Shown piece by piece: positions 29,486 through 61,410 of a stretch of 64,000 bases of DNA (position 1 is the stretch's first letter; the number at the start of each line of letters is the position of its first letter). Source of the stretch: Calditrichota bacterium (GTDB lineage Bacteria; CLD3); the NCBI GenBank assembly GCA_008501735.1, contig QQUF01000035.1, positions 148,468 to 212,467 on the forward strand, in the 5' to 3' direction. The notes beneath the pieces were generated by a model, which did not search any database, was not told the origin of the DNA, and worked only from the letters and a program-made list of their open reading frames with translations. The translations under genes were made by a program, and so were the position numbers.

Positions 29486-29525
29486 CTGAGTAGTAAATAA
29501 AAAATTAAACTTAGGAACTAATAAA

Positions 29526-39877: not shown

Positions 39878-41860
<1,983 letters not shown>

Positions 41861-42169
41861 TTAACAGAAAACTATTTTATTAATGATTTTTTTATTTGCT
41901 CTTTTATTCACTTTTTCTACGATTTCGTCAGAAAGATAGAAAAGTTGATTTCGCCAAACCGAGTGAGGAACTTTTAGGTAAAGAACATTTTGCCTAACTT
42001 CAATTGGTTTTGAATGGTCTGCAATTTCTTTACCAACAACTTCTTCCCAATCACTCAGAACTTGGAATTCAAAAATTCTATCTGTAGTTCCAAGAGATTT
42101 AAACAAAGCTTTTAAGCCATCTTCAAGGTTTGTTACTTTATTGATTCTTTTTTTATAATTTTTTTTCAA
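41861..42169 (-). CDS. DciA/DUF721-type helicase-loading protein
   Basis: Small protein (102 residues) of the DUF721 family; in several bacteria DciA recruits replicative helicase DnaB. Characteristic are ALFKSLGTTDRIFEFQVLSDWEEVVG (about 19-44; DW in the middle), ADHSKPIEVRQNVLYLKVPHSVW and QLFYL. The start is a TTG at 42169-42167; there is no in-frame ATG. The basic N-terminus (KKNYKKRINK) might bind DNA. It lies 12 bases from gyrB and 58 from recF, as in many replication-origin clusters. Confidence 0.85.
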   Translation of the reverse strand: MKKNYKKRINKVTNLEDGLKALFKSLGTTDRIFEFQVLSDWEEVVGKEIADHSKPIEVRQNVLYLKVPHSVWRNQLFYLSDEIVEKVNKRANKKIINKIVFC

Positions 42170-42227
42170 TTTTTACTTCGTTCTTAAGGTTATGAACTAA
42201 AGTTCAAAATCCTAATCATTGTTTAAT

Positions 42228-43292
42228 TTAAATTCTGAAAATTCTTTTTTCAGTTTCCAAGTTCTCAAATTCGTGAGTCGTTGTTACAAAAATCTGTGTT
42301 TTATCACCAACAAGTTTGAAAAACTCTCCGATTCTACTTGAGTCAAGTTCAGAAAAAACATCATCAAAAATTGCAATCGGTGATTCAAGCATTTCATTTT
42401 TTAAAAAATTAATTTCAGAAAGTTTAAGTGCCAAAATCAAAGTTTTGTGCTGACCTTGTGAGGCAAAACCTCTTGCAGCGTAACCACTCAACTTAAAACT
42501 TACGTCATCTCGGTGAATCCCGAAAACTGACGACTTTCGTGCTTTTTCAATTCTTCTTTTTCTTACAAGTTCATTGTAAATATCTTGCTGAGTTTCTGTA
42601 AATTCCAACGAGCTTTCGTAAGAAACGGTAATTTCTTCTTTACCTCCTGAAAGTTTGTTGTAAAAATCAGAAAGTTCAGTAGAAATTTTTTTCAAAAAAT
42701 CTTTTCTTCGTCTAATAATTTCAAAACAATAAGACGATAATTCTTCATCCCAAGGGTCTAAGAAATCATCAATTTTTTTCGGCTCAAATTCTGAAAGAAG
42801 TTTATTTTTCTGCTTAATTATTTTGTTGTAACGAATCAAACTGTCAAGGTAAATCTTACTCGTCTGAGAAATTACAACGTCAATAAATTTTCTTCTGCCA
42901 GAAGGAGAACCATTTGAAATCTGAATATCATCAGGCGTTAAGCACACGCAAGGATGACTGCCAATAAACTCTGAAAACCTATTTACAACCTTGTGGTTTT
43001 GCGAAATCTTTTTGCCTTCACCTTTTTTGTAAATCAAAATTACTTCGCTGTTTCCACCTTCTTCAAAACCAAAATTTCCAGTAACATTAAAATGGTTTTT
43101 GTCTTTTTGAAGAACAAATTCTTCACTTGAAGTTCGGAAACTTTTCAAAAAACAAAGGTAGTAAATCGCTTCCGCAAGGTTTGTTTTGCCGATTCCATTT
43201 TGTCCAACAAAAATGTTTACACTTGGCGAAAACTCAAATCCAACGTCGCTTTGGTTTCTAAAGTTCGTAAGTCTGATTGACTTCAAAAACAT
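42228..43292 (-). CDS. recF: DNA recombination and repair protein RecF
   Basis: SMC/ABC-type ATPase (354 residues) that acts with RecO and RecR at gaps and stalled forks. Landmarks: Walker A GQNGIGKTN (about 30-38), the ABC signature FASQGQHKTLILALKLSE (about 279-296) and Walker B PIAIFDDVFSELD (about 305-317). It starts 2 bases after the dnaN stop, so the two are translationally coupled. Confidence 0.95.
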   Translation of the reverse strand: MFLKSIRLTNFRNQSDVGFEFSPSVNIFVGQNGIGKTNLAEAIYYLCFLKSFRTSSEEFVLQKDKNHFNVTGNFGFEEGGNSEVILIYKKGEGKKISQNHKVVNRFSEFIGSHPCVCLTPDDIQISNGSPSGRRKFIDVVISQTSKIYLDSLIRYNKIIKQKNKLLSEFEPKKIDDFLDPWDEELSSYCFEIIRRRKDFLKKISTELSDFYNKLSGGKEEITVSYESSLEFTETQQDIYNELVRKRRIEKARKSSVFGIHRDDVSFKLSGYAARGFASQGQHKTLILALKLSEINFLKNEMLESPIAIFDDVFSELDSSRIGEFFKLVGDKTQIFVTTTHEFENLETEKRIFRI

Positions 43293-43294
43293 TG

Positions 43295-44410
43295 TTAATC
43301 AGAACTAATTCTGATTGGCATTGCAATCATCAAAAATTTATCTTTTGCTTCGTCGTTATTTTCTGGCTCCAAAAGGACTGCTCCTGTTGGGTGTTTCAAA
43401 TTTAAAGTAACGTTCAAAGTGTCGATTCTTTTCAAAGTATCGAGGAGTAGAGTGGCGTTAAAGCCGATTTCCATTTCTTCATTTGTGTAATTACAATCAA
43501 TTGTTTCTTGTCCGTAACTTCCCATTTGTGCATCTTCTGTAATAACTTGAAGAGTATTTTCAGTCAAATCCATTCGGACTTGGTGAGTCTCAGAATTTGA
43601 AAGAATCAAAATTCTTCTTAAACTTGAAGCTAATTCGGTAACATTTACTGTGAGTTTTTTATCATTATCATTCGGAATTACTCGCTTGTAATCTGGATAC
43701 TGTTCTTCGATAATTCTCGAATAAAGTTCACTGTTTTCCGATTTCCAAATCAAGTGATGTTTTGCGATGTAAAACTCTGAACTTTCTGAAATTTCCATTG
43801 TTCTAAGAATTGCCGTTAAAGCTTTCAAAGGAAGAATTACAGATTTTTCACCTGCGAACTTTGCATCTTTTGCGAGATATTTTGAAAGCTTTGTTCCGTC
43901 AGTTGCAACAAAATTTACACCTTCTGGAGAAACTTCTACGAAAACACCTCTAAGAGCGTGTCTCAAAGTATCAGTTGAAACAGCAAACGAAACTTTGTCA
44001 ACTGCTTTCTTGAAAGTTTCAGGCTCAATTTCTAATCTAACTTCATTTTCAACTTCAGGATTCAAAGGAAAGTTTTCTGCACCTTCGCCTGAAATTTGGA
44101 ATTTTCCGTGCTTGGTCTCAAGTGAGATTCTGACACCTGTTGCATTAAAGGTGATAACTTCGTCGTTAATTTCTCTTAAGAAGCTACTCAAAATTTTTGC
44201 TGGAACAGTCATCGCACCACTTTCAACACCATCAACTTCTAAATTGAAAGTTTGAAAGATTTCAGTGTCAGTTGCTGTTAACTTGAGCATATTTCCTTCA
44301 AGAACAAAAAGAATGTTATTCAAAATTTCGAGTGTTGTCTTAGAAGGGACAACGCTACTAAGTGATTGAACAACCTTTACCAACTCGGAAGTTCTGACAA
44401 TAAAACGCAT
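43295..44410 (-). CDS. dnaN: DNA polymerase III beta sliding clamp
   Basis: Ring-shaped processivity factor (371 residues, normal length). The N-terminal MRFIVRTSELVKVVQSLSSV, the three-domain clamp pattern with LRHALRGVFVEVS (about 148-160) and FVATDGTKLSKY (about 164-175), and the C-terminal FLMIAMPIRI (about 359-368) are typical. It is the first gene of the replication group; dnaA is not adjacent. A terminator lies 22 bases before its ATG, so the promoter must overlap that small gap or readthrough must occur. Confidence 0.97.
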   Translation of the reverse strand: MRFIVRTSELVKVVQSLSSVVPSKTTLEILNNILFVLEGNMLKLTATDTEIFQTFNLEVDGVESGAMTVPAKILSSFLREINDEVITFNATGVRISLETKHGKFQISGEGAENFPLNPEVENEVRLEIEPETFKKAVDKVSFAVSTDTLRHALRGVFVEVSPEGVNFVATDGTKLSKYLAKDAKFAGEKSVILPLKALTAILRTMEISESSEFYIAKHHLIWKSENSELYSRIIEEQYPDYKRVIPNDNDKKLTVNVTELASSLRRILILSNSETHQVRMDLTENTLQVITEDAQMGSYGQETIDCNYTNEEMEIGFNATLLLDTLKRIDTLNVTLNLKHPTGAVLLEPENNDEAKDKFLMIAMPIRISSD

Positions 44411-44489: not shown

Positions 44490-46007
44490 TTACTTTCCTG
44501 TCGGACAAGCAACCATTTCGAGAAAGACTGGAAAATTAAATCCGTCGGTTTGCTCGTCTGTATGACATTTCAAACAACCTTGTTCATTTGGAATTCTACG
44601 AATTGTTTTCTTTCGATTTTCCAATGCGGATTCAATATGGAACTTTCCTGGTCCGTGACAAGATTCGCATTGAATATTTTTAAGATTTCCAACTTCTTTT
44701 GGCTGATAAAAGCCGCCTTCTTCTTCCCAACCTGTAACGTGACAACCAACACAGTCAACACTGAATTGCTTGTTTTCTCGTTCCAAAATTGCGTAAGCGT
44801 GAGCGTGTCCCGTTTCTAGCCAAAAACTATGTTGCTTAGTATGACATTCTTTACAACTTTTTTCACCAACAAAAATACGATTTGGATCAGAACCAGCATT
44901 TTTCAAAGCCCTTTTGTTTTTAGCGATTGATGCAACCTTTTCTGTAACAGCATCAATTTCTGTACGAATATCCTCTCGGTCAACAATGCTTCTATTCATA
45001 TCAATTAGTTCAAAAGCGTAATAGTTATTTTGAGTCTCTTCATCGAGCTTTTTCTTAGTGCTTTCAAGACCTTTTTGGATATTCGTCTTGAGATTTTCAT
45101 CTGCTTTTTCAAGTCTTTTTAAAGTTTGTTCGTAGGCTCTTTTTGTTGTAGTAATGTTTGTAAAAATAGGCTTTGTGTTATTAGTTCCCATTCCAACGTC
45201 AAGTGTTCCGATAGCTCTTCCTCTGTCTCGTGTTCTGAGGATTGTTGTTTGCCCAACAACTTCAGGGTTCACTCTGTATTGGTCGTGTCCTAAAACAGCA
45301 AAATCTACTTCCTGCATACTTGTAATCATTTTTTCAAATGGTTGTTTTGAAACGTCAGCCAAAATGATGATAATTTCACAACCTTTTTCCTTGAGTTCTT
45401 TCGCTGTTTCTTTTGCAGAAGTAGCAAAATCAAGAACATCCCAATCAACGCCTCTTGGTTTTGGAGTAATTCCTTGTGTAATTCCAAAGATCCCAACCTT
45501 GATTCCTGAAACATTTTGAATAATGTATTTTTCAAAACCGAGTTCTTTTGAGTCGACTCCGACAACATTACTTGAAATGTAAGGAACTTTATATTCTTTG
45601 GATTTATCTTGTAAAAACTTTAAACCGTTAGTTAAATCTTTTATACCTACATTGATTGCATCTAAGCCCAACTTCTTTTGGGATTTCATCAATAGTTCAG
45701 CTTTTAGAATCCATTCTTCTTCTTGAACGCTTGTCATATTTTGGCTTTTAAAAAGCATACTTCCTGCGTCAACAACAAGCAAATCTTGGATTTGTTTTAA
45801 GCTATCTAAAATTGTTGCTTTCTTGGCAAGACCGCCAAGTGGATTCTTCTTTCAACCACAGGGTTCGAGTTCGCCATTCACATCGTGTGAATAAACTAAC
45901 TTGAAGATTTTGTCGTTTTGCGAGACATCTCCATTATTGTTAGTTTCAAGGCAACCTGTAAGCGTCAAAAAGAAAGTTAAGATGAAAAGTGAAAGTAACT
46001 TTTGCAT
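44490..46007 (-). CDS. Lipoprotein with 5'-nucleotidase/SoxB-like and four-heme cytochrome domains; in-frame TGA, candidate selenoprotein
   Basis: The frame runs from ATG 46007 to TAA 44490, 505 codons, with one internal TGA at codon 52 (45854-45852). The N-terminus is a lipoprotein signal (lipobox LTGC, Cys19). Around the TGA the peptide reads YSHDVNGELEPCG-TGA-KKNPLGGLAKK, and this family has Cys at that place (EPCGC). The nucleotidase-like domain continues to about 270 (LLVVDAGSML, INVGIKDLTNG, AVLGHDQY). The C-terminal part has four CxxCH heme sites: Cys385-His389, 419-423, 447-451 and 478-482. An 18-nt spacer and a CTTGGC-GGTCTT-GCCAAG hairpin follow the TGA, like a bacterial SECIS. TGA is the stop of other genes here. 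Alternatives: nonsense mutation or base error. Confidence 0.75.
45822..45839 (-). promoter_or_regulatory. Candidate SECIS hairpin
   Basis: On the minus strand CTTGGC, loop GGTCTT, GCCAAG. The loop starts 18 nt after the TGA of the cytochrome gene. A GGTC-containing apical loop at about that distance is what E. coli fdhF uses, as I recall. The stem is only 6 bp and also codes for the conserved LGGLAK residues, so it may be partly fortuitous. Confidence 0.5.
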
Positions 46008-46059
46008 TCTTTTCTTTTTAAGACTCCTTGTTTAAGTGTTAGACTAAATACTGTTAAAA

Positions 46060-58809: not shown

Positions 58810-61410
58810 ATGGTTGAGAAAATGAAAAAAAGTTTAATTCCTATTTTGCTAATTTTAGCAAATTTTTCAAAAGCAAACTCACAAATTTTATTAACAGAGA
58901 TTTTTCCGAATCCAACAGGAAGTGACAACCAAAAAGAATTCGTCGAAATTTATAATTTTTCAAGTCAGTCGATTGATCTCGCTCAGTGGAAAATTTCTGA
59001 CAACACTTCAACGGACACTTTTGTCGAGACAGGAAATGGTTTCATTCTTCCGCCAAATCAGTTTTGCATAATTTTGGAAAACGACTACAACTTGGCGACT
59101 GGAATTTATAACGGAATTATTCCCGACTCGACTTTGATTTTAAAAGTTGACGACGCAACAATCGGAAATGGTTTGCTCAACACTTCCGAAACAGTTTCGA
59201 TTTTGGACGACCAAAACAACGCTGTTAATAATTTCACTTACAATAACGTTCCTGAAAATTTTACAATTGAAAAAGTAGAGTTCGCAAATCCAAATTCAAC
59301 AGAATGGAAAATTTCAAAAATTGAGCAAGGAACTCCGGGATTTAAAAATTCAATTTCTCCGAAAAGTTTTGACCTTGAGTTAACGGAATTTGCACTTGTC
59401 GAAAATTTGACAAGCCATTTTGAAGTAAATTTGAAAATCAAAAATTTAGGAACGAGCTCTGCAGATTCTTTTGAAGTCTCATTTTTTGTTGAAGGAGTTT
59501 TTGACCAAAAGAAAATTTTCGCCCAACTCTCAGATTCGCTTACAATTAATTTTGAAAAAAATTCTCAACTCAATTTTGGTGCAACAGTCTTGGTAAAAAT
59601 TGATTGGGCTAAAGACGAAGACCAAACGAACAATGAAAAATTTCTGCAAATCCCTTTTGAAAGGGGAGTTGTTCTTTTCAACGAAATTCTTTCTTCGCCT
59701 GAAAGTGGGAAACCCGAATGGATTGAACTTGTCAACGCAACGAATCAGAAAATTGATTTGGCTGGTTGGCAAATTCAAGATGCATCTGGAACAGTCATTC
59801 CACTTTCAAATAATTTTTTGGAAAACGAGTTTTTAGTTTTTGCGGAAGGGCAAACGGATTTTCCAAATCAAAGTTGTTTTGAGTTGCCAATAAATTGGAC
59901 GGCTTTGAACAACAGTTCCGAAACACTTTTACTTTTGGATTTGAGTGGTCAAGTAATTGACTCAATTTCTTACGACTCTGAAACTTGGGACATTCAGTCA
60001 GGAAAATCTCTTGAAAGAATAAATTTGGAGCAAGAGACAAACGAGCCGACAAACTGGAAATCTTCACTCGCTGACTTAGGCGGAACACCTTGTGAGGAAA
60101 ACTCTTTTGCAGGATTACAGCCGAATCAGAAAGGAAGCGTTCTTTTTAGCGAGTTTCTTCCTGCTCCCAACCTAAACGAAGCAGAATGGTTCGAACTCTT
60201 TAATAACACGCAAAACGAAGTGAATTTAAAAGGTTGGTTTGTAGAGAGTTCTTCAGGCAATAAAATGTTTTTAAAAAGTAACCTTAGTACTACTGAATTT
60301 TTAGCATTTTCAGACACTTCAAATTTATTCACAAATTATCCACAAAACGTGTGCACAACTATTTTAGGCGATTTTTTCACACTTCCAAACACAAATGGAA
60401 CACTTATCTTGAAGGACTATTTTGGGGTTACTATTGATTCTTTTACTTACACTTCTAACTGGGAAATTGAAACAGGAATTTCTTTAGAAAGGATAAATTA
60501 TGCGATTGAAGCCACTGATTCAACGATTTGGAAACAAAGTTTGGCAGTCGTTGGTGGAACTCCTTGTGAATCAAACTCTTACCAAACTGTCAAGTTGGAT
60601 TACGAGTCTAACGACCTAAAAATCAACGAAGTTATGTTTTCACCTTTTAGCGGAATTGCAGACTATTTTGAAGTTTTCAACACTTTACCCACAGAAATTC
60701 AATTGAACGGTTGGAAAGTTGCAAAAACCAATGGAGACAAGGGATTAAGATTATTTCCTAAAGTAATTTTACCGAATGATTTTGTAATCATTACTAAAGA
60801 TTCAAGTATTTTTAAAATTTTTCCCGAAGCCGAAGAGAAGACTTTAATTCTACCGAATTTATTTTCACTAACAAGTTCAGACACAATCCAAATTCTGACA
60901 CCTTTGGAAAAGCAAATTGATTTCTTGGCTTACGACGAAAATTTTGGAGGCGGAACAGGAATTTCAATCGAAAAAATAAATCCCTCTTTGGAGAATACTT
61001 CTGAAAATTGGAGTTCGTCAGTTCGTTTTGAAGGAGGAACTCCAGGATTCCAAAACAGCATTTTTCAAGAAGTGAGTCAAAGTGAAGTTAATTTTGACGT
61101 TTCAATTTCACCAAATCCATTTTCGCCCGACAGTGATGGTTTTGAAGACCAAGCTGTAATTTCTTGGCAAACAAACGAAACTTCACTGACTTTGGACATC
61201 GAAATTTTTGACGTTAAGGGAAGAAAAATCAGGCAACTTGCAAACGCAGAAATTGTCGGAGGAAAAAGTTCTAAACTTTGGGACGGAAAAAATGACGACG
61301 GAAAAGTCGCAAGAATTGGTCGTTACATAATTTTGTTTAAAGCAAAGAACTCGCAAGGAACAAAAATTTTACAAAAGAAAAAAACTATCGTTTTAGCAAA
61401 AAAACTTTAG
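58810..61410 (+). CDS. Exported multi-lamin-tail-domain protein
   Basis: Large exported protein (866 residues; a second ATG at 58822 is an equally possible start). Signal peptide about 1-25. Four lamin-tail-type (LTD) units follow, near 26-175, 275-420, 445-600 and 605-755, each ending in W-x(2)-S-x(5)-GGTPG/C-x(2)-NS-like text, e.g. LADLGGTPCEENSF and LAVVGGTPCESNSY. Between units 1 and 2 lies a CARDB-like beta domain. The C-terminus has a FlgD-Ig-like region (SISPNPFSPDSDGFEDQAVI, then LDIEIFDVKGRKIRQL) and a basic tail (KKKTIVLAKKL), possibly a T9SS-type signal. The start lies only 10-22 bases from the ComF start, so promoters overlap coding DNA. Confidence 0.8.
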   Translation: MVEKMKKSLIPILLILANFSKANSQILLTEIFPNPTGSDNQKEFVEIYNFSSQSIDLAQWKISDNTSTDTFVETGNGFILPPNQFCIILENDYNLATGIYNGIIPDSTLILKVDDATIGNGLLNTSETVSILDDQNNAVNNFTYNNVPENFTIEKVEFANPNSTEWKISKIEQGTPGFKNSISPKSFDLELTEFALVENLTSHFEVNLKIKNLGTSSADSFEVSFFVEGVFDQKKIFAQLSDSLTINFEKNSQLNFGATVLVKIDWAKDEDQTNNEKFLQIPFERGVVLFNEILSSPESGKPEWIELVNATNQKIDLAGWQIQDASGTVIPLSNNFLENEFLVFAEGQTDFPNQSCFELPINWTALNNSSETLLLLDLSGQVIDSISYDSETWDIQSGKSLERINLEQETNEPTNWKSSLADLGGTPCEENSFAGLQPNQKGSVLFSEFLPAPNLNEAEWFELFNNTQNEVNLKGWFVESSSGNKMFLKSNLSTTEFLAFSDTSNLFTNYPQNVCTTILGDFFTLPNTNGTLILKDYFGVTIDSFTYTSNWEIETGISLERINYAIEATDSTIWKQSLAVVGGTPCESNSYQTVKLDYESNDLKINEVMFSPFSGIADYFEVFNTLPTEIQLNGWKVAKTNGDKGLRLFPKVILPNDFVIITKDSSIFKIFPEAEEKTLILPNLFSLTSSDTIQILTPLEKQIDFLAYDENFGGGTGISIEKINPSLENTSENWSSSVRFEGGTPGFQNSIFQEVSQSEVNFDVSISPNPFSPDSDGFEDQAVISWQTNETSLTLDIEIFDVKGRKIRQLANAEIVGGKSSKLWDGKNDDGKVARIGRYIILFKAKNSQGTKILQKKKTIVLAKKL

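Follow-up and report, generated by a model that had tools for sequence, protein, structure and literature searches.

Selenoprotein gene and its product

The internal TGA of a gene at positions 44490-46007 of the window (the whole 64,000-nucleotide stretch of Calditrichota bacterium DNA analysed here) is almost certainly read as selenocysteine, a reading drawn from sequence that extends to the UshA_like_PCGU family as a whole. The assignment of UGA to selenocysteine in the preliminary description was supported by a match to NCBIfam model NF041198, by the selenocysteine machinery of the genome, by alternation of TGA and Cys among homologues, by tandem TGA copies in a related genome and by tests of the SECIS hairpin. 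The gene is a new member of a catalogued, functionally uncharacterised selenoprotein family, fused here to a four-heme cytochrome, and is not a new family.

The gene was located on the minus strand, as were the parts of it and the downstream genes for which window positions are given below. Its frame of 505 codons opens with ATG, closes with TAA and contains a single internal stop, the TGA of codon 52 (45852-45854). Translated with TGA as Sec, the product reads MQKLLSLFILTFFLTLTGC (lipobox LTGC), followed by SHDVNGELEPCGU(52)KKNPLGGLAKK and then by four CXXCH motifs. A lipoprotein signal peptide with the lipobox was assigned from sequence to residues 1-19 (45951-46007), and a UshA / 5'-nucleotidase-like domain was assigned to residues about 32-364 (44916-45914) from an AlphaFold2 model and its structural matches. 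The EPCGU motif occupies residues 48-52 of the 505-residue lipoprotein, with Cys50 (45858-45860) opening the Cys-x-Sec motif. The four heme motifs, identified from sequence, are CKECH (44841-44855), CVGCH (44739-44753), CESCH (44655-44669) and CLKCH (44562-44576), and the C-terminal segment that carries them matched the cytochrome c554 family PF13435 with an E value of 1e-13. The signal, the TGA at codon 52 and the conserved protein downstream had all been described beforehand, and their coordinates, strand and TGA position were confirmed. Judging from these motifs, the product would be exported and lipid-anchored with heme attached at the four CXXCH sites, and it is very probably a lipid-anchored tetraheme protein.

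Plain ORF calling cuts this selenoprotein short: its mechanical ORF begins only at 45782 and lacks both the signal peptide and the active motif. An AAGGAG sequence at 46024-46029 lies 16 nt 5' of the ATG, which is rather far for a ribosome-binding site; the actual start or signal could be slightly different.

Family assignment

Against the equivalog model NF041198 (UshA_like_PCGU, "UshA-like (seleno)protein"; cut-off 275 bits) the window protein scored 351.8 bits, over profile positions 8-518 of 519. The family is marked by PCGU or PCGC with Sec or Cys as the last residue, and the window protein carries EPCGU. Membership of NF049981, a second UshA-like selenoprotein family, was rejected, the similarity being weak and below the NF049981 cut-off. 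A scan of genome contigs with the window protein returned only cytochrome-half matches, in Geomonas.

A 2008 ocean metagenome survey lists a 'COG0737, UshA-like, CxU' selenoprotein family (PMC2398784), the UshA-like selenoprotein family appears again in a 2022 review (PMC9312934), and NF041198 is named as a selenoprotein family in a 2026 review (PMC13188914). As the family was already present in selenoproteome reviews, the candidate selenoprotein of the preliminary description becomes a new member of a known family, although its Sec reading stands. No function for the UshA-like PCGU family was found in the accessible text of the open-licence literature, and no discussion was found there of the eroded nucleotidase site or of its pairing with a tetraheme domain.

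Alternation of TGA and cysteine

TGA and Cys sequences were collected with identical, gapless spacing to the GG[LVIMF] motif. Across all lineages the site was TGA in 47 distinct sequences, including that of the window, and Cys in 26, which is the alternation to be expected of a Sec site in this motif. The two motif positions were Cys, then Cys/Sec, in 39/39 full-length four-heme proteins, and every aligned full-length homologue had TGA or Cys at position 52. A single further genome in the set belongs to the same family. In it the gene is tandemly duplicated (L070:4529-7765), and both copies, at 49-51% identity, have TGA at this codon. One of the two has EACGU for EPCGU, with Ala for the Pro that precedes CGU. 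The same genome also carries a third paralogue with Cys, as EPCSC (L071). A diverged relative, L061, has the variant motif PSGUGC, in which Sec stands without the usual preceding Cys-Gly context; the sequence suggests that Sec is able to change its place in the motif.

The earlier caution of a nonsense mutation or a base error was taken as a reading in which the intact gene has Cys and the present one is a pseudogene or artefact. The Cys codons TGT and TGC are one substitution from TGA and Cys homologues exist, but the same codon is TGA in two tandem same-family orthologues and in dozens of genomes of many lineages, the 505-codon frame is otherwise open, the NF041198 model is defined on the TGA site and the Sec machinery is complete. 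Since the syntenic same-family genome has TGA in both tandem copies, a base error at this site is ruled out, and mutation or error as an explanation is excluded in practice, with a probability that we regard as negligible.

Across the window, only the TGA at 45852-45854 divides open upstream codons (59) from more than 400 conserved coding codons downstream. Two further read-through candidates were rejected: that at 29487 lies in untranslated DNA ahead of a start codon, and that at 59567 looks non-coding.

Selenocysteine machinery

The genome, an assembly of 59 contigs totalling 4.1 Mb with an estimated completeness of 100%, was searched for selA, selB, selC and selD, and all four were present above cut-offs. 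SelA scored 492 bits (cut-off 268), SelB 371 bits (cut-off 242) and SelD 367 bits (cut-off 125), and selC scored 61 bits, above the Rfam cut-off, with ARAGORN in agreement (tRNA-SeC, anticodon TCA). Two other genes of the genome contain an in-frame TGA at classic Sec sites. One is selD, within VKCAGU (G000:C46, TGA at about 1531 of L018), and the other is a formate-dehydrogenase-like gene about 26 kb outside the window, within QCAATUHAPTVAGL (G000:C41, L160:1921). In the latter, GGTCT likewise begins 18 nt past the TGA. Among the genomes with homologues, selA was found in 24/25 with TGA copies, the exception being 81% complete, and in 17/24 of those whose copies all have Cys (Fisher p 0.023).

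TGA terminates 7/44 window ORFs of at least 200 aa and so is still an ordinary stop in this genome. This count bears on a reading in which UGA is decoded as another residue (Trp or Cys through a near-cognate or suppressor tRNA, or through a reassigned code). Beyond the open frame, nothing was found in favour of it; the stop usage, the tRNA-Sec with its TCA anticodon, the alternation with Cys and a SECIS-like hairpin selected beyond codon needs all stand against it, and it is scarcely credible.

SECIS hairpin

A bacterial SECIS (bSECIS) hairpin was assigned to 45822-45839 from covariation, synonymous recoding and the published bSECIS model. It consists of a 6-bp stem, CTTGGC/GCCAAG, and the apical loop GGUCUU (45828-45833), which starts 18 nt after the UGA; the GGTC-loop hairpin first noticed in the letters is thus present as CTTGGC-GGTCTT-GCCAAG, read from 45839 to 45822. 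PMC13188914 gives a bSECIS model with a loop of 3-9 nt, an upper stem of 4-16 bp, a G in the first two loop positions and a distance of 16-37 nt from the UGA, and the window hairpin lies within these limits with its 6-bp stem, 6-nt loop and 18-nt distance. The folding energy of the hairpin was not significant against dinucleotide shuffles (z = -0.37). As the minimum-free-energy z was uninformative, the hairpin was judged by covariation and by synonymous recoding. Rfam, at gathering and at relaxed thresholds, gave no hit at the TGA site, either to SECIS or to any further RNA family.

In 43 TGA rows, 26 cells were changed on both sides of the stem against 8.6 in shuffles, and 0/500 shuffles were as high, counts which overstate independence because the homologues are related. 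The helix covariation score for the same rows was 0.306 against 0.123 when shuffled, and slid versions of the helix scored no more than 0.125. After synonymous recoding with each gene's own codon usage, the pairing excess reached a Z of 8.4 in the TGA rows and a weaker 2.4 in the Cys rows, and the energy of the window hairpin was better than that of 299/300 recodings (1/300). The three core pairs were found in 44/47 TGA rows but in only 5/26 Cys rows. When the comparison is confined to rows whose +28 codon encodes Ala, the counts were 35/38 for TGA and 4/6 for Cys, so that these groups barely differ. Where Pro replaces Ala (G28 to C), 8/8 TGA rows, all from one phylum, have G for C at the synonymous third base of the Gly codon, which restores the pair; neither of the two Pro-bearing Cys rows has a compensating G at that base. 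The covariation, the recoding and this compensation in the Pro rows argue against the caution that conserved codons alone explain the stem.

We strongly infer that SelB, loaded with Sec-tRNA(Sec), binds to the GGUC-loop hairpin that closely follows the UGA; through this binding the ribosome would insert Sec at residue 52 and would not stop.

Nucleotidase fold and hydrolase site

The AlphaFold2 model had a mean pLDDT of 87.8 and a pTM of 0.85. Its residues 1-364 matched 5'-nucleotidases with Z values of 29-31 over about 280 residues, which places them in the metallophosphatase fold, and matched the thiosulfohydrolase SoxB with a Z of about 29. The score against the SoxB model TIGR04486 was 52.8 bits, below its cut-off of 550.

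The nucleotidase motifs were mapped onto the family by profile alignment. The His of DxH is replaced by Lys, Arg, Gly or Asn, the Asp of GD is Asp, Asn or Ser, and the Asn-His of GNH is Glu or Asp followed by a variable residue. No hydrolase ligand was invariant in the 39 homologues, whereas Cys50, the Cys/Sec of position 52 and every residue of the heme motifs were. At the motif positions the window protein has D42, N44, S83, I122 and K123, and the dimetal ligands and GNH catalytic motif of UshA and CD73 were not found in it. With the metal ligands and the catalytic His lost, this UshA-like protein is most likely not a nucleotidase. Of the cytochrome-nucleotidase originally described, the four-heme cytochrome stands, and 'nucleotidase' applies to the fold only, as the hydrolase metal site is not conserved.

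A Sec protein whose nucleotidase-like domain has kept metal-dependent hydrolysis in the manner of UshA or SoxB, with Cys and Sec as new metal ligands, would fit the shared fold (Z 29-31, with SoxB also close at 29) and the retention of Asp42 and of the final GH in part of the family. It is nevertheless unlikely, given that the family has no invariant hydrolase ligand and that the window protein has D42, N44, S83, I122 and K123 at these positions. The decay of the hydrolase site makes hydrolysis unlikely and the Cys-x-Sec pair the probable active centre.

Proposed redox role

The invariant Cys50-x-Sec52 lies on the loop before GGLA(R/K) and would form a redox centre or a soft-metal/chalcogen site. 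Loss of the nucleotidase metal site with retention of Cys-x-Sec and the hemes points to electron transfer over hydrolysis, and this can be tested. Among the TGA sequences, 38 have four hemes and 5 are closed ORFs with no hemes in cis, a distribution which favours electron transfer between Cys-x-Sec and heme; the 5 heme-less homologues also mean that the cytochrome is not obligatory. Exchange of electrons between a periplasmic Cys-x-Sec site and the attached tetraheme cytochrome is a proposal for and against which we give about equal weight. We hold as evenly balanced the broader proposal that a dead 5'-nucleotidase fold may have been turned into a new class of Sec redox enzyme, in which Cys-x-Sec at the old cleft would trade electrons with the fused tetraheme cytochrome outside the cytoplasm, in a respiratory or a sulfur/metal redox pathway.

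The PCGU site might instead serve to detoxify or reduce a soft metal or metalloid (e.g. Hg, Cu, As, Te) that it binds in place of a small-molecule redox substrate. Such binding is consistent with the chelating geometry of Cys-x-Sec and with a surface lipoprotein whose attached cytochrome could reduce the bound ion, and other Sec families in the catalogue of PMC13188914 are mercury-related. Neither the window nor the same-family genome has recognisable metal-resistance genes beside the Sec gene, and soft-metal binding is tentatively considered a minority possibility.

Genomic neighbourhood

Directly downstream of the Sec gene, on the same strand, lie dnaN, recF, a DUF721-like gene and gyrB (39878-44410). 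The dnaN-like sliding clamp gene (43295-44410) served as the synteny anchor and is conserved in the same-family genome, in which the Sec gene stands at the same place, between a PfkB-type kinase/ispF/gltX side and dnaN-recF-gyrB. The Sec gene, directly upstream of dnaN-recF-gyrB, thus occupies a place before dnaN that is often taken by dnaA. In the neighbourhoods of 24 loci from many lineages, no convincing partner gene common across lineages was found. Only the G142 locus (L095:2620-6927) was suggestive, with DUF1573, rhodanese and MauE/DoxX genes on one side of the Sec gene and a gene for a 4Fe-4S membrane protein on the other; these neighbours are no more than a hint of sulfur or thiol redox chemistry.

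Comparison with known systems

The window protein shares with the NF041198 family a whole-length match and Sec in the PCGU motif; it is only about 22-32% identical to homologues outside its own taxonomic family, and its hydrolase site is more eroded (S83, I122, K123). One more member is thereby secured for the catalogued family, and the tandem pair and the natural Cys forms provide matched material on the benefit of Sec over Cys. The window hairpin resembles the E. coli fdhF SECIS in its GGUCU loop and its 18-nt distance from the UGA, but its stem sequence and the downstream protein are unrelated. With E. coli UshA and CD73-type 5'-nucleotidases the window protein shares the N-terminal metallophosphatase fold; in contrast to them it lacks the metal ligands and catalytic His, has an added Cys-x-Sec and has a tetraheme cytochrome in place of the nucleotide-binding C-terminal domain. 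SoxB, which is periplasmic, has the same fold, but its dimetal site is not kept in the window protein, and sulfur chemistry would apply by analogy only. The C-terminal segment with four CXXCH is held in common with the cytochrome c554 family, and in the window protein it is fused to a UshA-like Sec domain and is not free-standing.
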